Part shown: piece by piece, positions 4,056-49,633 of the stretch
How positions within the stretch are numbered: position 1 is the stretch's first letter
How the letters are laid out: each line of letters begins with the position of its first letter
Source of the DNA: a virus
DNA length: 49,633 nucleotides
Direction: 5' to 3' (one strand)
Virus record (IMG/VR): IMGVR_UViG_3300042890_000425
Span: 1 to 49,633 of that record
Notes under the pieces: generated by a model
What the model saw: only the letters and a program-made list of their open reading frames with translations
What the model was told of the DNA's origin: nothing
The model's database searches: none
Translations under genes and position numbers: made by a program

Positions 4056-7000
4056 CTATCTAATTCCGTAGTTAGATTGAACTCTCAAACCAAGGTCTTT
4101 AGCTAGTTCAGGATAGAACATTGGGAGATATCCAGCCATCTGATTTGTGAATGGGAATGTCTTCAGCCAGTATTTAATAACCTTGATTTCTTCAACAGCT
4201 TCATCATCCCCTGTAGCAAGAGCCCAGTTTTCTTTAAAGAAGTTCACGGTGCCCTTTTTAAAGTTGTCTACAAGTCCTAAGGATGGGAATATGCCACTAG
4301 ATACGAGGTTTTGGAAGCTAGTGGGGTCATAGAAGTATGCCAATTCATCCTTAAACTTATCAGCAGCCTTCACCATAAATCTATATCTAGCCTTAGTAGC
4401 TGCATCCTCTTCATCATCAGGCATGTTTGCCTTGAGAGAAGCTACGAGGATGAACATAGTTGTTAGGAATATAACATCGTACATTTGACTTCTGAGGTTA
4501 TTTCTCACCAGGTCCATGAACTCAGCCTCTGTCATATCTAGAGTTTTGCCTGTATCCTTTTCATAATCAGCTCTTTTCTTTTCAAATAGCTCTCTCATGA
4601 AATCAACACCCTTCTGATTAGCTACAAGGGAGCCGTACAGATTATTAAGGCTTCCTATCAGGTCTTCTGACAACATGCGGAACACCATTCTCATCCTTCC
4701 CCACTCATAGGCATCTGAAGCATTATTATACTTAAGGTTACCCATACGTACATCTACCAGACGAGGGATCCAGTTCTTGAATATCATGAATGACTTACCG
4801 TATATAGTGAGGTTGATCTTTCTCAAATCATCCTCAGACAGGTTACCAAGAGCATCCTTTGTAAGTTGTTGTACGTTCCTTCTGAGCCTAACAACACTGT
4901 CGGATTTTCTTTCTACACCAGGTATAACAAATTCATTATCAACGATTTGTGCAACCTTTAGTATACCCTTCTCTTCTACAAGACTCTTCACTTCAGCCTC
5001 AAACTCTTGTTCAAAAGCTTTCCTATCTTCCACTGTACCAGCATATTTCTCTGCATACTTAGGTTGAGATCTCAAGAATTCTCTTGCATTCACCACCTCT
5101 CCATCTTGTACAATTGTGTTCTTGAGGAAGGAGTAGAAGTTAGCTGTCTGTACAGCCCAGTCAGACTTCCTCATGAGCACCATCAAGAAGTCCTGTAGGT
5201 TCTGTTGGTTTAACTTATTGAGAGATAGGCTGTTAGCCACATCCCTGTTGTAGTTTTCTGTCAGAGGAAGGAAGTATTCAAGAGCACCAATCAGTTTCTT
5301 TTGATCATCAACGTTAGCAAACTTGTTAACAAACAGCATTGCCTCAGAAGATAGATAGTCTGTCTTGGTAAAATACTTACCAGAATTGATTACAGACTGA
5401 GCATTACCACCAAAGAAGTTGGAGGTTGCAGACAGTACGTTCAATCCTAATGTAGTGATCTGGAAGGTGTTGTTAAGCTGATTGATTATCTTATTAACAC
5501 TCAGTTGTCTACCGTCTAGGTTTTCTGGGAACACCTTCATACCTAGTTTAGTGTTCAATGTTTCACCCCATTTACCAAGGTTACCTAGAAGCTGGTCAAA
5601 GGTTTCACTCTGTACAAACTTCTGACCATAGATGATGGATTTCATCATGTCTTCAACAAGCTTTGTGTTCTCGTTGTTGTCTGGGGTGTATTGAAGAACG
5701 CCATCTTTATATTCAGTTCTACCAAATACAGATGTAGCGATTGCCTTTTTATTTCTTTCTACAGCTACAAGTGCTCTCACCTGATCCTCAATCTCACTGA
5801 GATATTGGTATCTGATGGCAGACTCATTGTACATAGCCATAGTTCTAAACAAGTCATCACTCACTTCCCCTTCCACTTCTTTTGTGAAATACTTAGGAAG
5901 CGCATCTATAGGTTTACCTGTTAGAGGATCAATCTTTCCATATCCTATATCACCCTCATCGATTGATATATCTCTAAAGAACTGTTCGCCAAGTCTTACG
6001 TTCCCTCCTGTAATAAGTTTCTCTACAAGACTCTTTCTTACAAATGGAAGGAATGTACGAGCCTCAGCTCTTCCTATATATCCCAACTCACGGTAGATTT
6101 CGTTTCTCTCTTTGATGTAGTTGTAGAAATCTAGAGCAGGTTTATTGGCAGGATTATTAAGCTCTTTCCATTCTTTAGACTCCCAGGTCTCACGTTTAGG
6201 GAACAGTTTCACAAAGTCGTATAGCAACCATCCAGCACTTTCTGTAGTGGATGTATTGTAGAGCAACTTTGCCTGATTCTTCTCACGAGTGATTTCAGAA
6301 TTAATTTCCACTTCTGTACCCACTCTGTGCTTGTTCTCTATTCTCTCAAACTCCTCTTCTAACTTTTTCTTTAAGAACTCATTGTACTCAGACACATTGA
6401 TGTTGTCCCTAACCCACTGAGAATCTTTCTCTTCTATGTTCTTCTTAAGGGTGGAATAGAACTCAGGATTGAATTCATCAATCAGTTCGTTACTCTTCTT
6501 CTTCTTAATAATGTTAAAGTAGTCTTTCTGTGAAAGTCCTTTTGAAGCAGCCCATTTATCATAGGCCTCTTTCAGAGATTGTAGCTTTTTGCTTTCTGTT
6601 AGTGTATCATAACCTGCAAGAGCAAACGCTTTATTTGCTTTCTTGTACAACACTTCCATAGCTTTTAGCTGTATGGTGGCTGTAGATGCAAACAGTTTTG
6701 TAATACCCTTTACAATCTTTTCAGGAGACAGTAAACTATCCACCCCTTCACTCTTAGCAATAATCTCAGAAGTGTAATCATTAAGGATGTCATTCAAAGT
6801 TGATTGTATATCTCTGGCATCATCAGCAGCATCTCTTAAATCATCCTTAAGTTTTCTATCTTCCTCAGATAATTCTCCTACAAATAGACCTCTAAGGTCT
6901 GTGTCGAGATTAACGTAAGTGTTGATAGCATCCTGAGCTGTCTGTAATTCCTCAGCAAAACTGTTTATTTCTTTCTGGCTAAACTGTGAAGGATCTTGAC

Positions 7001-37851: not shown

Positions 37852-37892
37852 GTTATAAATAAAAAACTCCCCAGGGTAGAAACCCTAGGGAG
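37852..37892 (-). terminator. Intrinsic terminator ending the head/fibre operon
   Basis: On the minus strand CTCCCTAGGGT, a 4-nt loop and ACCCTGGGGAG form an 11-position stem with one mismatch (37892-37867). TTTTTTATTTAT follows directly. This is a classic hairpin plus U-tract, placed 39 nt after the last gene of the operon. Confidence 0.85.
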
Positions 37893-41814: not shown

Positions 41815-42546
41815 TTATTCGTTTGTCTGTATCCTGAACTGTGCACTTTGAACAGCAGCAGCGTTCTCTGTGTACATTGCTAGGTTTTGTACTGTCAAGT
41901 CTAACAACTCATCCTCTAGATAGAGTTCAAGTTCGCAGTCTTGATTAAATGATGGTTGGCCATCTAGCATGACATACCCTTCTGCATTTATATACACTGG
42001 ATATCTCATATAAGACATATATATCTTACTAGGAGTGAATGTACCATCTGTAAAGATGGATATTTCATCTGTCGAAAGGAAGTTGAAAGTCTCTTGGTAT
42101 TCAAAGCTTGGTTTGTAATGGGTATTATTCAGAATGAACTGAAGGTCACCATGTTTAGCCAAGTCTCTGTTTATCCAGATCTTTCTATCCTTACACACCC
42201 CTTTGTCAGCAAGTATATAACTATCGATGTAGAACATATACTTAGGAACAAGCAGGTGCAGATTAGCAAACCATTGATTTAGTTCTTTATTCTTGAGAGT
42301 GAGATCAAGAGGTTGATGGTTGTATGTTACGACCAAGCTTTGAAGGTCCTCATAACGCTTCTTAAAAGCATCAAGTCCCATTCCGCTCACTACACTAAAA
42401 CCATCAACCTTTTGTTTTATCAGCTTTATCTGAGCCTCATTGAGTGCTAAGATCTTATCTTCTAAGTTTATCTGCTGGTGAATATTGGTTGACAGTTTAT
42501 TTAGTTTTTGGTCGATCTTGTACAACAAACTGTCTACTGGTATCAT
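41815..42546 (-). CDS. Head-associated structural protein, 243 aa
   Basis: The N-terminal 90 residues are helical and likely coiled (LLYKIDQKLNKLSTNIHQQI). The rest is beta-rich with many Tyr and Asp (FTPSKIYMSYMRYPVYINAE, ELELYLEDELLDLTVQNLAM). The start overlaps the stop of the 322-aa gene by 4 nt (ATGA), so they are translationally coupled. Similar proteins sit after the capsid gene in crAss-like genomes, as far as I recall. Head completion or a portal-vertex ring are both possible. Confidence 0.7.
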   Translation of the reverse strand: MIPVDSLLYKIDQKLNKLSTNIHQQINLEDKILALNEAQIKLIKQKVDGFSVVSGMGLDAFKKRYEDLQSLVVTYNHQPLDLTLKNKELNQWFANLHLLVPKYMFYIDSYILADKGVCKDRKIWINRDLAKHGDLQFILNNTHYKPSFEYQETFNFLSTDEISIFTDGTFTPSKIYMSYMRYPVYINAEGYVMLDGQPSFNQDCELELYLEDELLDLTVQNLAMYTENAAAVQSAQFRIQTNE

Positions 42547-43511
42547 ACTGCAGCTAATTTCTTAGTTTTCAGCTTTCCTTCAAGTGTTAACAGGAGATCC
42601 TGGTTATCATCGTCAGAGAGCATCTTAATCAAATCATCTTCATCCTTAGCTACTTCAAACTCACCTTCATATATTTTACCGTTAGGTTTAGATCTATATA
42701 TGGAATGGGTGATAGCTTGCTTCACTAAGTCTTTGATATGGAGTAAGTTATCCTTCATATCTGCAAAGCGTGTGAACACTTCAACAGGATTGAGTCCTTG
42801 ATACTTACCGTTTTTAAACTCGGTTTGTTTGAGGACATTGTCTACAAGATTGTAAACTGCTTCCTCTTTAGTATCATCAGTCACAGGTAATCCCAACAAA
42901 CGTGCCACTTTTCTTTTTCTTTCAGGAGTCATTCCGTCAAACTTAACAATAGCCTTGTTAATCATTTGCTTTTTCTTGAACAGAACAGCATTCTCGATTT
43001 CATCATCAGCTACATAGAACTGAGTTTCAGCTGGATATTCACCACGCTCCCAAGCTTGATAAGAGCTTGCAATTGTTGGATGAACACGAAGCCATGAGAA
43101 GGCTAATTCCTGAAAAGGAATAGAAAGATCGAAGAAGTTATCACCATCCAAAAGTTTTACAGGCTGAACGTGCAGTGTATCACTTGTTGATGTAGACAAT
43201 CCATAGTTCCAGAAACTAGAACGAGGACCTAAGTCAACATCCCCCAATGCAGCTTGCAATTTGTCTCTAAGATTCTTAACACGCTCAGTCTCCAGTTCTC
43301 TCTCAAGAGGATCAGAGATTCTACGGATGTAACTAGCATTAGGATCAAGTCCTGTTCTGTACTGTCCATCCAATTCCTTGTAAGGATACTTAAATACCCC
43401 TGTACCAGGAATACGTGTTAGGCCTTTTAGTGAAAGACCGCCTTGCATTGTTTGAAGTTGTGAGTTGTTATACTCCTTCTTAATAGTTGAGATTTTACCT
43501 AACTTACCCAT
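42543..43511 (-). CDS. Conserved protein downstream of the major capsid gene, 322 aa
   Basis: A basic start (MGKLGKISTIKKEYNNSQ) is followed by a mixed alpha/beta body with FWNYGLSTSTSDTLHVQPVK. A helical, charged region from about 165 (VLFKKKQMINKAIVKFDGMT, PERKRKVARLLGLPV) leads to an acidic segment (DEDDLIKMLSDDDNQD) and a basic end. No catalytic motif is visible. The ATG is preceded by AAACTACAT, the same leader ending as the scaffold-type gene at 46.56 kb. It ends in TGA. Structural role inferred from place. Confidence 0.68.
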   Translation of the reverse strand: MGKLGKISTIKKEYNNSQLQTMQGGLSLKGLTRIPGTGVFKYPYKELDGQYRTGLDPNASYIRRISDPLERELETERVKNLRDKLQAALGDVDLGPRSSFWNYGLSTSTSDTLHVQPVKLLDGDNFFDLSIPFQELAFSWLRVHPTIASSYQAWERGEYPAETQFYVADDEIENAVLFKKKQMINKAIVKFDGMTPERKRKVARLLGLPVTDDTKEEAVYNLVDNVLKQTEFKNGKYQGLNPVEVFTRFADMKDNLLHIKDLVKQAITHSIYRSKPNGKIYEGEFEVAKDEDDLIKMLSDDDNQDLLLTLEGKLKTKKLAAV

Positions 43512-43539
43512 ATGTAGTTTATTTTATTTGGTTTATTCG

Positions 43540-43682
43540 CAGAGTGATTCCCACCGAAGGGACAGCGATTGGGAGACACCCCAGTCCAACCACTCTGTAA
43601 GTGAGAAGAGCTCCCCCACGGGGATGTGGGGGGCAATCTCTTCTCGATATAGGAGTCTAAGGATACTATCCTTAGAGTGGTT
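43540..43682 (-). ncRNA. Strongly structured RNA between the capsid gene and the next gene (candidate)
   Basis: The whole spacer after the capsid stop folds on paper. P1 is AACCACTCT (43588-43596 on +) with AGAGTGGTT (43674-43682). Inside it are hairpin A, CTAAGGATA with TATCCTTAG (43657-43675), and a two-step hairpin B with GAGAAGAG/CTCTTCTC (43603-43610, 43638-43645) around CCCCCAC/GTGGGGG (43613-43619, 43626-43632). A rival stem pairs CAGAGTG (43540-43546) with CACTCTG (43591-43597), using the same bases as P1. A small hairpin TCCC/GGGA lies at 43549-43562. No T-tract follows, so it is not a plain terminator. Confidence 0.6.
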
Positions 43683-43684
43683 CC

Positions 43685-45238
43685 TTAGAATTGTGGGATT
43701 TCCTCAATAAGAACTGTACGAGACAAGTCCTCAATGAATACATCACAACGATCCTTCATCCAGATTTCGTATCCTGGGAATTTGTTCGCAGAGCTCATAC
43801 CCTGAGACTTAGCAAAGCCTAAGTGGTGGCGAGTTCCATCGATATAACCCCAAGTCATAGAAGGTGCACCCTTCATACGAACTTCACGGATGTTATTAAC
43901 CAAAGAACCATCAGACATTGGAGACACGTCGAATACCATAAATACTGGAGTGCTCTTCTTGTTCTGACCGAATTCAAGGTTAGTTTGAGGAAGGTCAAGT
44001 TCTTTCAAGTGAATAAGTTCAACACGACCAGTCTCACGAGTTACCATTGCATCGAATGCAAAGTTGTAAGTGATGTGTTGTCCTTCTCCTTGCATGTAAC
44101 GGTTTCCAGAATCAGCCATGAAGGTAAGACCACTGTTCAAAGCGTCTGTCTTCAAAGCTTGTTGGAATACGTCAAAACCTGCTTCGTTAGTGTACATTTT
44201 AACACGACGGTCCTTAACATCCACACGACGATAGAACAAGTCACCAAACACTGAACGAATCAAGTTTGCAGTGAATTCTCCACGGTTGTACTGAACAAGG
44301 TTACCGTTATTACGCATTCTGTGGTAAACACCAGCAGAGGTACGCTTAAGTTCTTGCTTGCTACCGTTAGTCTTAACAGTACCAGGACGAGACCAAATCA
44401 TACGCTTAACTTTCAACTCAAGCATAGACTTACGCATCCAGAACTCAATAAATGGCTCCCATTTAACATCGTTACGAGTTAAAGGAAGTTGGTTACGACG
44501 CTGAGGTGCATATACAAGGATGTCCAAAGGACGACCTGCAGAGTCACGCATCATTTTGTCATCAGCCCACTCAGTGATTTTGTGCTCAAAACCATATGCA
44601 GAACCCAAAGATTCAAACATTGTGATTTGCTCACCCAAACGAGGAAGACCTAAAAGATCTTGATCGAACTCACCAATTGCAGCATCAACCAACTCAAGTT
44701 CAATGCCCACTTGCAAGAAGGTAGAGCTAACGAAGTCTACAGTTGGATTGTCTGTAACCAAAGTGAAGCTATAAAGGAAGCCCATGTTCCAAGGAACTGG
44801 ATCCTTAATAACGTAAAAGCGAGGACCATATTGGCGAGAACCAACAGAAACGATTGCGTTCTTAGAGAACTCGTTTGTGTCAATTACCAATTGGAACTCT
44901 TGACCATCGATACCAGGCTTGCTCAGCTCAGCTGTAGCAGCAGGGATGTCGATAATCTTAGGGAATTTGTAGGGAACAGCTACTTGCCATTTCCAAGCAT
45001 CGCTATTATTATCAATGTAATAAGGCGTGCTTTTGTTGATCATGTCAAGAAAGTCGTTGCTGTAAAGAGAGCTCTGTGTGTAGAGGCTGATGATTTTCTT
45101 ATCGTAATCAGCAGGCTCAGTTGAGTGAAAGCTCTCCAGGTGGTTAGCGTCAGTTAGCTTACCCACAGCACGCTTGTCCATAGATGCGACACGAGCATAC
45201 GTGAAGCCAGTTAGACCTGGGATTGTTTGAATTGCCAT
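43685..45238 (-). CDS. Major capsid protein (HK97 fold, crAss-like)
   Basis: The 517 residues have the length and character of the crAss-like major capsid protein: an N-terminal arm (IPGLTGFTYARVASMDKRAV), a central segment with WMRKSMLELKVKRMIWSRPG, and a C-terminal part with FDVSPMSDGSLVNNIREVRM and MKDRCDVFIEDLSRTVLIEE. It follows the acidic scaffold-type gene by 26 nt, as in many tailed phages. Arg is mostly CGT, and an AAAGGA Shine-Dalgarno lies 7 nt before the ATG, both unusual here and both fitting very high expression. The structured spacer directly after the stop may protect its mRNA. Confidence 0.88.
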   Translation of the reverse strand: MAIQTIPGLTGFTYARVASMDKRAVGKLTDANHLESFHSTEPADYDKKIISLYTQSSLYSNDFLDMINKSTPYYIDNNSDAWKWQVAVPYKFPKIIDIPAATAELSKPGIDGQEFQLVIDTNEFSKNAIVSVGSRQYGPRFYVIKDPVPWNMGFLYSFTLVTDNPTVDFVSSTFLQVGIELELVDAAIGEFDQDLLGLPRLGEQITMFESLGSAYGFEHKITEWADDKMMRDSAGRPLDILVYAPQRRNQLPLTRNDVKWEPFIEFWMRKSMLELKVKRMIWSRPGTVKTNGSKQELKRTSAGVYHRMRNNGNLVQYNRGEFTANLIRSVFGDLFYRRVDVKDRRVKMYTNEAGFDVFQQALKTDALNSGLTFMADSGNRYMQGEGQHITYNFAFDAMVTRETGRVELIHLKELDLPQTNLEFGQNKKSTPVFMVFDVSPMSDGSLVNNIREVRMKGAPSMTWGYIDGTRHHLGFAKSQGMSSANKFPGYEIWMKDRCDVFIEDLSRTVLIEEIPQF

Positions 45239-46557: not shown

Positions 46558-46588
46558 ATGTAGTTTGTTTAAATTGGTTTTACGCGTG

Positions 46589-46619
46589 TAAAAATAGTCA
46601 GAGATTATTGAATAGCAAA
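46589..46619 (-). promoter_or_regulatory. Bacteroidota-type promoter for the head operon
   Basis: The minus strand reads TTTG (46619-46616), exactly 19 nt, TATTTTTA (46596-46589), one base off TAnnTTTG. The ATG of the scaffold-type gene is 31 nt further on, giving a normal leader that ends in AAACTACAT. Confidence 0.55.
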
Positions 46620-46677: not shown

Positions 46678-47208
46678 CTAATCAAGTTTGTTTATCACCG
46701 TGTCGTTTATAAGTCTGTAAGAGCGGATTGGGGCTAGGTCAGTGAGGGTTACCTGTTGGATTTCCACCCCCCATTTTCTAGCTTCCACTCTAGCTTTCTT
46801 CGTGAGGGTGTTATCTATCTCAGTGTCTATGCACTCATCTAGGGTTTTGTCCATGATGATGTTCTTAATAATAGACTGTGTCATATCTGATATAGCGTCC
46901 TGAGCATCATACACTTCTAATATAAATGTCTGAATATCAGCTATTCTGTACTTAATCACCCCCTTCACCACAATGTTCTGTTTGTCTTTAGTGTAAAGAC
47001 TCTGGGGGGCTAGGCTTATGGTTGTGACCACAACGTGCTGTTCCATAGGCTGATCCACAAACGGGATGCGCCAGTGGAAACCAGGTTTAACTGTTTTGTG
47101 GAACTTACCAAAGCGTAGAACAACTGCTTCCTCAAAATCTCTAACGATAAAGAAGGGAAGCAGCTGTTCAATCCACTCTGTGATTAGGTCAATTAGCCTA
47201 TCAAACAT
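46678..47208 (-). CDS. SPFH/band-7 (stomatin/HflK-like) protein, 176 aa
   Basis: The order of elements fits the SPFH domain: an N-terminal hydrophobic/amphipathic stretch (LIDLITEWIEQLLPFFIV), EEAVVLRFGKFHKTVKPGFH with IPFVD, NIVVKGVIKYRIAD, and a C-terminal KARVEARKWGVEIQQVTLTD. Usual family members are about 280-300 residues with a coiled-coil tail; this one ends right after the SPFH core. The start overlaps the portal stop by 1 nt, so it is coupled to portal translation. SPFH proteins form rings or cages at membranes, so a role at the injection site or in countering host FtsH/HflKC is possible; both are inference. Confidence 0.82.
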   Translation of the reverse strand: MFDRLIDLITEWIEQLLPFFIVRDFEEAVVLRFGKFHKTVKPGFHWRIPFVDQPMEQHVVVTTISLAPQSLYTKDKQNIVVKGVIKYRIADIQTFILEVYDAQDAISDMTQSIIKNIIMDKTLDECIDTEIDNTLTKKARVEARKWGVEIQQVTLTDLAPIRSYRLINDTVINKLD

Positions 47209-49633
47209 TATTTAGATTTTGCACCTCGGTTCTTAGCGTTCAATTTTGCTATCTCAAGGTCGTTCTTTTGATTTTCTCTAGCCACCTTCAGCTTCTCTCT
47301 TTCAATCTCAAGCTTCTGAAGATTCTGGACATTCTTACCTTGAATGTCTGCCATTTTCATTTCATAGTCTCTTGCTGTACGAGATTGTTCAGCAACAAGT
47401 TTGTTAATCTCTAGAACATCAGGGGTGCCACTCTCATCCACATCAGAGAGAGGACCTGCTTTTGATTCAGCAGCAATAAGGGCAATTTCTTTCTTATTGA
47501 TTCTATCAAGTTCATTTTGATAGTTATCATTAGCAATCTCTTGCTCTTTCTGAAGCTGAGCCTGTTGAAGCTGAGCAGCTGCAATTTCTCTCTGCTGATC
47601 AATCTGTTGCTGTTGAGTTTGCATTTGCTGATCTTGTATTTGCATTTGTCTGTCTCTCAGGTCTTTGAACACCTTCTTCATAGCTCTCATAGACTTGGTG
47701 CTGTAAAGCTCAATAACATCGTAGAGAGAGCCACCATTCTGGATAACAGCCTGAGAAAGTCCTCTAAGCTCGTCAAACATTTGCTTATCTTCAGGACGAT
47801 TTGTCAAGAACACCTTCAGGTCACGGAATTTAAGGTCAGATCCATTCACCTGTACAAAAGCAGCTTCTCCTTCATTTGTAATGTAAGAGAGAGTGGATTG
47901 AGGCTTCTTGGATTCTACATATAGAGCAGCATCTATAATTGATTGATAGAGCTGGCCCATGATATATTCGTGTGCTACAAACAGAGGTTCTGTTTGAGAA
48001 TAAGATTGTTGAACAGCTGCATTTACACCTGTAGCAGATTCACTAGCTGCCACAGATCCCATACGTTGCTTACTCATACCCACGAGCTCCCAACATTCGT
48101 TCTTGAGTTGTTGTGCTAGTGTGTAACGAGATTGTATTTCCTGCGTACGTGTGAGGTCAATGTCTCTAAACTGGTTGAAGCTAGAAGGACTCTTCAAGTT
48201 CTCAGGGCTATCGTCAATAAAGACAACACCTCTGTTACGTGCTTCCATTTCCCAGATGTCAAGAGCATCTTGAGCATCACCATCCTTTGGAACAGGAATG
48301 TGCCTGATGGATGTCAAATACACCTTACCCACTTCCTTCTCAAGGAGTTTGTAAAGCTGGTTCATACATACGTTGTACAACACCTGGAAAGGCTTCATCA
48401 AGTCAACCAGACTCTTTGCCTCTGTATTCTTCACCTCAAATGTTGTACCAATGATTGGACAATAGTTAAGAAGCTTGAACGGTTTGATATGATAGATGTC
48501 TGGTCCAATCTTTGTACCCTGATACCACTGGTTAATCCAACCCCATTCAATAGATTCTTGTGTAGGGATGGTGCCAGATTTGTAATTCTCATCTACTAGG
48601 ACAGATTGTTCATTGCCTAGTTCATCTAGATAAATGACCTTACCAATCTTTTTCTTACTTATCCAATAAGAACGAACAACAACATACTTGTATCCAAATG
48701 AGCTTACATTAGATGTAAGTCCTAAGAAGTCTTTTAGACCATCGTTGTTCTCCTTCATTTCACTCTCGATAATCATACGGGTTTGAAGGACCAGTGGATC
48801 AAACGTATCGTACATAATTGAATCTGTACCAGGTATTGCATCAGGATTACCCAAATTTGATTCACGGACATTAATTAGTCCATAGTCTTGGAGAGAACTT
48901 CTTAGATGATCAATTTCTTCTTTGGTTAGGTCAGGAATACTCTCAATGATTTCTGAAAGTTCCATAACCTGTACCGTACCAGCAGCATAAGCACCCTGAG
49001 CTCTACCTGTAGGATCAGAGATCCATTTTCTATCAGGAGTTGTAAGAAACCAAGTGTTCTTGGGGTTAGCCACCTCAATATTAAATCCAAGTTTTGAGTT
49101 ATCTTCATAAATGTGGTAAAATTCTCTTCCAGAAATTAGCAAATCACGAAATGCATCTTCGCTCTTTTCCTTCAGGTTAAACTCAGCCTTCTGACAGGTG
49201 AGTACGTGGTTAGCCCATTTCTCAGCTACAGATGTGTAGCTGTCAAGCACATCTTTCACTTGATCCATGGTGAGCTGTTGCAACTCTTCTTCATCAATCT
49301 CTTCACCTTGCATTGCAGCCTGCTGAACAATTTTCTGTTTAGCTTGACCAATTACATATTGCTGGAGAATGTCTGTCTTAAATTGTAGCTCTTCAGCTTT
49401 ACTGTCATCATCAAACGCTTTCACCCTGAATGTGTCAGGGCGTTTTGTGATTTCACCTACCAGCTCGTTCACTGGTGTGGTCATGATGGAATACATCTTT
49501 ACATACGCAGGAAGCTGAAGATCAGCTGTCATCATATCTGTAAAGCTCTTCACCTGAGGTTCTTGATAGAAGTCTTCCATCCTCAGAATACCTTTAATTA
49601 AGTCATAGTTTTTGACAAAGGTGTCACGGTTCT
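47208..49633 (-). CDS. Portal protein, 5' end outside window
   Basis: The frame is open to the right edge. Upstream of the ATG at 49580 the same frame continues (NRDTFVKNYDLIKGILR), so the true start is probably outside the window. The body has portal character: VKMYSIMTTPVNELVGEITK, WISDPTGRAQGAYA, and LVGMSKQRMGSVAASESATG in the C-terminal core. From about residue 630 (counted from that ATG) a long Gln-rich coiled coil (QMQIQDQQMQTQQQQIDQQR) leads to a Lys/Asn-rich helix, probably the barrel. It forms the DNA channel at the head-tail joint and is the docking site for the adaptor and ring proteins. It is translationally coupled to the SPFH gene. Confidence 0.85.
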   Translation of the reverse strand, partial: NRDTFVKNYDLIKGILRMEDFYQEPQVKSFTDMMTADLQLPAYVKMYSIMTTPVNELVGEITKRPDTFRVKAFDDDSKAEELQFKTDILQQYVIGQAKQKIVQQAAMQGEEIDEEELQQLTMDQVKDVLDSYTSVAEKWANHVLTCQKAEFNLKEKSEDAFRDLLISGREFYHIYEDNSKLGFNIEVANPKNTWFLTTPDRKWISDPTGRAQGAYAAGTVQVMELSEIIESIPDLTKEEIDHLRSSLQDYGLINVRESNLGNPDAIPGTDSIMYDTFDPLVLQTRMIIESEMKENNDGLKDFLGLTSNVSSFGYKYVVVRSYWISKKKIGKVIYLDELGNEQSVLVDENYKSGTIPTQESIEWGWINQWYQGTKIGPDIYHIKPFKLLNYCPIIGTTFEVKNTEAKSLVDLMKPFQVLYNVCMNQLYKLLEKEVGKVYLTSIRHIPVPKDGDAQDALDIWEMEARNRGVVFIDDSPENLKSPSSFNQFRDIDLTRTQEIQSRYTLAQQLKNECWELVGMSKQRMGSVAASESATGVNAAVQQSYSQTEPLFVAHEYIMGQLYQSIIDAALYVESKKPQSTLSYITNEGEAAFVQVNGSDLKFRDLKVFLTNRPEDKQMFDELRGLSQAVIQNGGSLYDVIELYSTKSMRAMKKVFKDLRDRQMQIQDQQMQTQQQQIDQQREIAAAQLQQAQLQKEQEIANDNYQNELDRINKKEIALIAAESKAGPLSDVDESGTPDVLEINKLVAEQSRTARDYEMKMADIQGKNVQNLQKLEIEREKLKVARENQKNDLEIAKLNAKNRGAKSK

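Follow-up and report, generated by a model that had tools for sequence, protein, structure and literature searches.

A conserved structured RNA behind the capsid gene of crAss-like phages with a module resembling half of a tRNA

Results

The stretch of DNA analyzed here (the window, 49,633 nt) is IMG/VR virus record IMGVR_UViG_3300042890_000425 and comes from a crAss-like phage, one of an abundant group. Its minus strand carries a P22-type portal gene (47208–49580, identified by Pfam search), the gene for a crAss-like major capsid protein of 517 aa (43685–45238; Pfam PF23898 Crass_capsid, E 7.1e-27; PHROG 11589, major head protein) and, behind the capsid gene, a gene for a 322-aa protein of PHROG 16383 with no assigned function (42543–43511), referred to below as the downstream gene. 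A homologue of the latter lies behind the capsid gene in all 310 loci kept. The two genes are separated by a spacer of 173 nt (43512–43684), in which the initial annotation had seen a candidate structured RNA with a GC-rich hairpin in an otherwise AT-rich genome; the GC content is 0.53 at 43540–43682 versus 0.41 across the window.

The capsid-sense (minus) strand of the spacer carries three modules, H1, H2 and H3. H1 (43656–43676) is an inverted repeat just 3′ of the capsid stop codon with perfect arms of 10 nt each (43656–43665/43667–43676). H2 (43603–43645) is a two-step GC-rich hairpin without a U-tract, the arms of which (43603–43617/43631–43645) are 80% paired. H3 (43540–43597) is a three-way junction with a tRNA-like (acceptor/T-arm) layout. 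Its acceptor-like P1 stem is formed by a 5′ strand at 43591–43597 and a 3′ strand at 43540–43546, the P2 arm (43565–43587) contains an invariant bulged G at 43566 that is present in 50/50 rows of the alignment A2 described below, and the P3 arm (43550–43561) ends in the loop UUCGGU (43553–43558), which belongs to a T-loop-like UUYRNU family in the same alignment. All pairings proposed in the initial annotation were found to be present, namely the perfect H1 hairpin, the two-step GC-rich hairpin, a long-range stem (43540–43549/43588–43597, 90% paired) and a rival stem, with 43591–43596 common to the last two. The long-range stem is real, but the structure to which it belongs had been seen only in part: 43540–43546/43591–43597 is the P1 base of a three-way junction from which the arms P2 and P3 emerge. 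The spacer is also more stable than its shuffled versions (z −4.22 over its full length, −4.54 over 43540–43682; 0/200 shuffles as stable), and 43540–43682 surpasses in stability all 1238 minus-strand windows of 143 nt sampled every 40 nt. In the free fold of the window, P1 has a pair probability of about 0.84.

The rival stem joins 43588–43596 to a 5′ partner at 43674–43682 (minus strand; 100% complementary over 9 nt), and the initial annotation had read it and the long-range stem as two mutually exclusive folds. Its pair probability in the window is about 0.05–0.13, corresponding to roughly 5–13% of the ensemble, and enforcing it costs 2.3 kcal/mol (−58.7 vs −61.0). The partner is not conserved. 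Across 132 distinct spacers, the longest complement between the 5′ part and the P1 strand has a mean length of 5.3 nt, no different from that in shuffles, whereas P1, P2 and P3 covary; a complement of at least 7 nt occurs in 18 of the 132, and one of 9 nt in six near relatives of the window and in locus L076. Moreover, the partner strand overlaps H1, and relatives have unrelated hairpins in place of H1. With the complement at chance level and H1 exchanged in this way, a switch is not supported, and bistability was discarded as a general feature of the spacer.

Relatives were collected by three capsid-based scans (the best 80 of each), two scans with RNA patterns and one match to an annotated phage. 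The resulting sample of relatives comprised at least 310 loci with a capsid gene and the downstream gene, among them many repeats of one and the same contig, and was reduced to 150 distinct spacers. The annotated phage collection gave no DNA match to the window, and records very near the window may be missing from it. A pattern for H3 alone matched 54 stretches, of which 52 lie between a capsid gene and the downstream gene, the remaining two beginning near a contig edge and being followed by the downstream gene only. An H3 parser, which required a T[TC][TC][AG] loop of 6 or 7 nt and thereby partly selected the first four loop positions, succeeded on 133 of 149 spacers. Usable plus-strand loci accounted for 115 of these; 66 were kept below 93% identity, and the H2+H3 cores of 50 were aligned with MAFFT (alignment A2) and built into a covariance model, R1. 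Excessive divergence or poor trimming led to the omission of 16 (L073, L172, L174, L175, L176, L179, L182, L184, L198, L202, L208, L219, L224, L238, L239 and L307, with L202 and L224 cut off-register by the parser), and most of them re-enter through R1 in a second alignment, A4, which has 61 rows (56 distinct) fitted to the model. A further MAFFT alignment of H3 alone (A3) had the 3′ strand of P1 out of register and was left out.

Model R1 matches the window at 43537–43648 (E 4.6e-18) and, at E≤0.001, 74/75 plus 61/75 or 135/150 of the distinct spacers, 50 of which are rows of the model and match by construction. The 15 spacers that it misses are L137, L167–L171, L179, L182, L187, L198, L200, L207, L213, L237 and L242. 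On the other hand, L044 and L067, which the parser had missed, were recovered; the capsid tree, made by a quick method, used the parser labels, and the entries marked "no" for L044, L220, L258 and L302 are not true absences. Among 24 whole phage records, R1 finds a single strong place (E≤1.1e-4) in 20, weak matches only in two and none in two. Several records show additional weak matches (E 0.02–0.5), the majority of them in the same position on the other strand. A second copy of the RNA elsewhere in the phage was considered for L332, and the extra weak match there, lying mostly within an open frame, was taken as chance.

The base pairs of the RNA are maintained by compensatory changes. RNAalifold reported such changes in 23/28 pairs of A2, and when P1 and P2 were extended, both-side changes were found in 26/32 pairs with 92.9% of the cells paired. 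None of 500 shuffles reached any of five measures for this extended structure, and slid versions were only 42–53% paired. Counts of G-U/U-G versus A-C/C-A cells at the consensus pairs of A2 (91 vs 28) identify the minus strand as the structured one. Phylogenetic nulls were simulated with our own R-scape-like scripts, not R-scape itself, in which columns evolve independently on a tree from the same alignment. For A2 (60 simulations), 5/28 pairs reached E<0.05 over all 8256 column pairs; for A4 (100 simulations), 7/32 pairs passed over all column pairs and 19/32 when the pairs of the structure alone were tested. Support is strongest in P1, P2 and P3 of H3, and H2 is less variable, with both-side changes in 8/11 pairs. 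Neither null gave a significant pair outside the helices, so that no tertiary contact, including one of the D-loop/T-loop type, is supported. The RNA is thus a conserved structured RNA with covariation beyond phylogeny. The initial annotation had called for exactly this comparison of relatives, and its proposal of a structured RNA was borne out by conservation, covariation and stability relative to shuffles; that the RNA in the capsid spacer is genuine and evolutionarily conserved is nearly certain.

The 5′ part of the spacer behaves differently in that the sequence of H1 is swapped among relatives, most of which nevertheless retain some hairpin there. These upstream segments fold well (mean z −2.8, 72/99 below −2; a few of the 99 hold H2, not H1). 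A second type of H1 was noticed by eye in the 5′ spacer part of L043, L058, L073, L140, L202 and L212, which have a GCNNNCCRYAAGAWCNGC-like sequence in common; it is a large-looped hairpin and possibly a separate conserved motif. Some spacers have also received small genes. One is inserted before the RNA in L214 (4051–4506; Pfam HNH at 20.8 bits, cut-off 21.4) and another after the RNA in L076 (4746–5063), where a Cys/His pattern is visible by eye without a Pfam match. Long capsid spacers were also seen in L080, L081, L219, L282, L286 and L304. In Leptolyngbya phage Lbo-JY46 (L137, PP438436.1), the spacer is short and plain and lies behind a gene annotated as hypothetical, the product of which is 25% identical to the crAss-type capsid protein of the window.

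The initial annotation had noted the missing U-tract behind H2, and in agreement with this, no intrinsic terminator (a GC-rich hairpin followed immediately by a U-tract) was called at H2 in the window. Hairpins with a U-tract were called at the place of H2 in L200, L191 and L167, the only relatives scanned. Distant relatives (capsid about 40% identical) and the clade without H3 have a terminator-like hairpin, the stem of which is followed by 4–8 T within 10 nt; in the H3-less loci L200, L207, L213 and L242, which form one supported clade, 7–8 T follow the best GC hairpin within 10 nt, and the mean for spacers bearing H3 is 3.9 T (n=133). These observations suggest that H2 is probably derived from an intrinsic terminator. 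The exchange of H3 for a U-tract is not strict, because L191 has a terminator together with H3 and L237 has neither. Elsewhere in the window, the segment 30000–49633 contains 13 terminator-like sites versus 12.5 expected by chance; the one that stands out is a strong canonical terminator-like site on the minus strand at 37867–37892, with an 11-bp stem and a TTTTTTATTT tail.

In sequence and predicted fold, H3 is reminiscent of that half of a tRNA which comprises the acceptor stem and the T-arm. The 3′ strand of P3 continues into that of P1 as the T-arm of tRNA continues into the acceptor stem, and among the 133 parsed spacers the 3′ side formed by P3, J31 and P1 has a length of 13 nt in 66 cases and of 12 nt, as in tRNA, in another 53. 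P1 has 6–10 bp and P3 3–5 bp, limits that were partly set by the parser. The P3 loop of A2 reads U (50/50), U (50/50), C (49/50), R (50/50), A (35) or G (13) and U (48/50). Since A2 rows had been pre-filtered on T[TC][TC][AG], the first of these positions are partly circular, which does not apply to position 6 or to the bulged G. The loop stays UUYRNU across 22 different versions of the P3 stem among the 50 rows, and the outer P1 pairs CAGA/UCUG are nearly invariant in A2. UUYRA is the core of the T-loop. Dimerization of P3 loops through a palindromic UCGA was considered and rejected, the loops UUCAAU and UUCGGU not being palindromic.

Several features of tRNA were not found in H3. Its loop has 6 nt in 130/133 parsed spacers (128 of them UUYRNU) and 7 nt in L179, L198 and L261, and is not the 7-nt T-loop UUCRANN; position 5 is G in 13/50 rows of A2, weakening the T-loop U-A pair. 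There is no anticodon arm with a 7-nt loop, and a single P2 region of 13–31 nt takes up the space in all parsed spacers except L198 (38 nt). A 3′ CCA is absent, P1 being followed by C and then mostly by A, and the first P1 pair is C-G. The Rfam tRNA model RF00005 gave no match in the window (at gathering, and at E≤5 in 43450–43750), in L179 and L323 (E≤10) or in L198 (E≤5). The model works on this material, as it finds a true tRNA-Met (CAT anticodon, 63.6 bits) at 4150–4224 of L307, between an intact H3 and the leader. Searches with ARAGORN called tRNAs in only 2/150 spacers. In L198, it places a tRNA with a 2-nt anticodon, by our reading a 6-nt loop, at the position of H3, 8 nt before AAACCA and with extra sequence between H2 and the tRNA; the only Rfam match to this element is to a tmRNA fragment, with 8.3 bits at the T-arm (E 0.11). 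Two further spacers were inspected by eye. L179 was seen to have an acceptor and a T-arm only, and L323 an acceptor, a possible D-arm-like hairpin and a T-arm without an anticodon arm. The L323 spacer is no more stable than its shuffles (z −0.86, 43/200), and its predicted P2 differs from the D-arm-like hairpin seen by eye.

The 3′ end of H3 coincides with the beginning of the 5′ leader of the downstream gene (43512–43539, minus strand), a sequence in common with a second leader in the window at 46558–46580. The latter belongs to the gene upstream of the capsid gene and follows a conserved promoter-like element, TTTG-N19-TAnnTTT (46590–46619, minus strand). In relatives, a TTTG-N16-21-TAnnTTT box, which we take to resemble the Bacteroidota promoter, is present in 97 of 105 distinct upstream regions (taken from 233 loci), versus 2/105 after one mononucleotide shuffle per row. 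The box is followed by the leader AAACCA...ACTACAT-ATG, which is present in 98/105 of these regions, and both motifs of the leader recur in front of the gene behind H3 in 125/150 spacers. The box itself was found in only 1/150 capsid spacers, and no sigma-70 promoter was called in the spacer of the window. The spacings of the two leader copies are alike. Within 20 nt of the P1 3′ end, AAACCA is present in 118 of 132 spacers, at a distance of 4–8 nt in 113 and 2–10 nt in all 118; in the promoter copy, 5–12 nt separate the end of the −7-like box from AAACCA among the 94 rows listed. With the leader common to both genes, the promoter box all but confined to the upstream side of the capsid gene and the spacings alike, H3 appears to replace the transcription start, and judging by position, cleavage at the 3′ base of H3 would leave an almost identical leader. 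A host hint of another kind comes from L323 (JACIXZ010000023.1), an 88%-identical capsid gene on a contig of a MAG labelled Tissierellales, which may reflect mis-binning or the host; as a host, Tissierellales would conflict with Bacteroidota-like promoters.

Discussion

The structure of the RNA, its conservation, strand and single fixed site, the tRNA-like layout of H3 and the matching leaders are directly supported by the data presented here. From them we infer cleavage, recognition by tRNA enzymes, coaxial stacking and an effect on expression, and our preferred reading, which we put forward tentatively, is that the spacer marks an mRNA boundary in the capsid operon, at which H3 would be processed like a tRNA. 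H1 and H2 would make up the 3′ terminus of the capsid mRNA, and H2, which looks like a terminator without its former U-tract, would either terminate leakily or block 3′ exonucleases. H3 would be a stripped-down tRNA-like structure in which the acceptor-like P1 lies beside a T-arm-like P3 with its T-loop-like hexaloop and P2 takes the position of the D and anticodon arms. In transcripts that continue past H2, host RNase P on the 5′ side and tRNase Z on the 3′ side would cut at H3, freeing a stable capsid mRNA and leaving the downstream mRNA with a leader equal to the promoter-derived one. Protection of the capsid mRNA and tuning of the genes behind it, both suggested in the initial annotation, are compatible with this boundary model and have been taken into it. 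For its third suggestion, a separate RNA that acts in packaging or assembly, no evidence emerged from the sequence comparisons.

What a review describes of RNase P (PMC4919913) is consistent with such a role: the enzyme fits the T-arm/acceptor stack, the D-loop appears dispensable while the T-loop or a similar loop is needed, and non-tRNA RNAs that offer the stack are cut. The length requirement for the stack comes from the same review, and the 3′ strand of P1 and P3 measures 12–13 nt in 119/133 parsed spacers. The phage M3 and C4 RNAs and the T4 gene 32 mRNA are listed as RNase P substrates in PMC11143913; like these and like tmRNA and 4.5S RNA (PMC11143913 and PMC4919913), H3 has a T-loop-like element, and it lies in a phage message. 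H3 is similar to tRNA (RF00005) and to tRNA-like RNase P substrates in the acceptor-like stem beside a T-arm-like hairpin and the 3′ strand of 12–13 nt. Unlike tRNA, however, it has no anticodon arm, no CCA and no Rfam match, its loop is of 6 nt and its cleavage is only putative.

Processing at H3 has to be weighed against the lack of RF00005 matches, the ARAGORN tRNAs in 2/150 spacers only, the 6-nt loop and the missing CCA. The absence of H3 from L237, which has no U-tract either, the presence of a terminator and H3 together in L191, and the L323 fold that is no better than shuffles also count against it. We regard as doubtful the broader proposition that in one crAss-like lineage a tRNA (or tRNA-like) gene has become non-decoding late-operon punctuation, cut by host tRNA-processing enzymes and separating the capsid from the connector mRNAs. 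Possible intermediates among the relatives are a true tRNA beside H3, a degenerate tRNA replacing H3 and versions without an anticodon arm.

An explanation without any tRNA enzyme, in which H2 sets the level of read-through as a leaky terminator, in the manner of the terminator behind gene 10 of T7, and H1 and H3 merely block exonucleases on either side, seems unlikely to us. The U-tract hairpins at the place of H2 in distant or H3-less relatives (L167, L200 and the T counts given above) speak in its favor, as do the strong canonical site of the window, though it is one of 13 where 12.5 are expected, and the widely differing quantities in which phages require capsid and connector proteins. H2 of the window, however, has no U-tract and was not called, and this explanation does not account for H3 with its conserved loop, invariant bulged G and covarying three-way junction.

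The invariant P1 base (CAGA/UCUG) and the bulged G suggest sequence-specific recognition of a kind that RNase P does not need, which argues against reading by tRNA enzymes. Together with the loop, these positions would suit a protein-binding site for capsid autoregulation or assembly, or a stable small RNA with a function of its own, and the one strong match at a fixed place in 20/24 phage records is also consistent with this. Even so, we consider such a function quite improbable, given that one supported clade and L237 lack H3 and keep the capsid and downstream genes, and that a tRNA-shaped element can take the place of H3 in L198. Very unlikely is control of the downstream gene in cis by a riboswitch or a self-cleaving ribozyme: the three-way junction, the T-loop-like arm, the invariant unpaired bases and a position 25–36 nt before the start codon in most spacers would be in keeping with it, but these unpaired bases are few, the start region is unpaired in the fold of the window and Rfam gave no match. 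As for the bistable switch of P1 against the 43588–43596/43674–43682 stem, the exact 9-nt complement and the two folds within 2.3 kcal/mol of the window are outweighed by the chance-level complement (at least 7 nt in 18/132 spacers) and the swapped H1 of its relatives, and we find it extremely improbable.

The RNA has counterparts among known systems. The terminator Tφ of phage T7 is an intrinsic terminator behind gene 10, likewise a GC-rich hairpin directly behind the capsid gene, to which the terminator-like hairpins at the place of H2 in relatives may be compared; unlike Tφ, H2 of the window has no U-tract and is followed by H3. The Mu-gpT-DE RNA (RF03012), which lies behind the major-head gene of Mu-like phages, is likewise a conserved RNA element at that position, but it belongs to other phages and its model has no match in the window or in 43450–43750. 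In mitochondrial tRNA punctuation, tRNA-shaped elements also stand between messages of one transcript; H3 differs from those in being non-decoding and at a single phage-operon boundary, with processing only proposed. Two aspects of the element therefore have precedents: Mu-like phages carry a conserved RNA behind a capsid gene, and some tRNA-like substrates of RNase P are phage RNAs. The initial annotation knew of no such element at this site in crAss-like phages, and none turned up in Rfam 15 (the window at gathering, 43450–43750 at E≤5) or in the titles and abstract openings of the mostly non-subscription literature. Permissive Rfam searches for a known family gave sub-threshold matches only (two in 43450–43750 on the other strand, eight in L179, three in L198 and three in L323), which were taken as chance.

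We know of no account of how crAss-like phages make capsid protein in large excess over connector protein from one row of genes. A conserved RNA located exactly at the capsid/connector boundary provides a direct, testable handle on this unequal expression, and the alignment and covariance model can be used as a new RNA family for annotation. If it is true that tRNA-processing enzymes read H3, the element would be a form of tRNA-like punctuation in a phage late operon and would join viral tRNA mimicry to mRNA processing.
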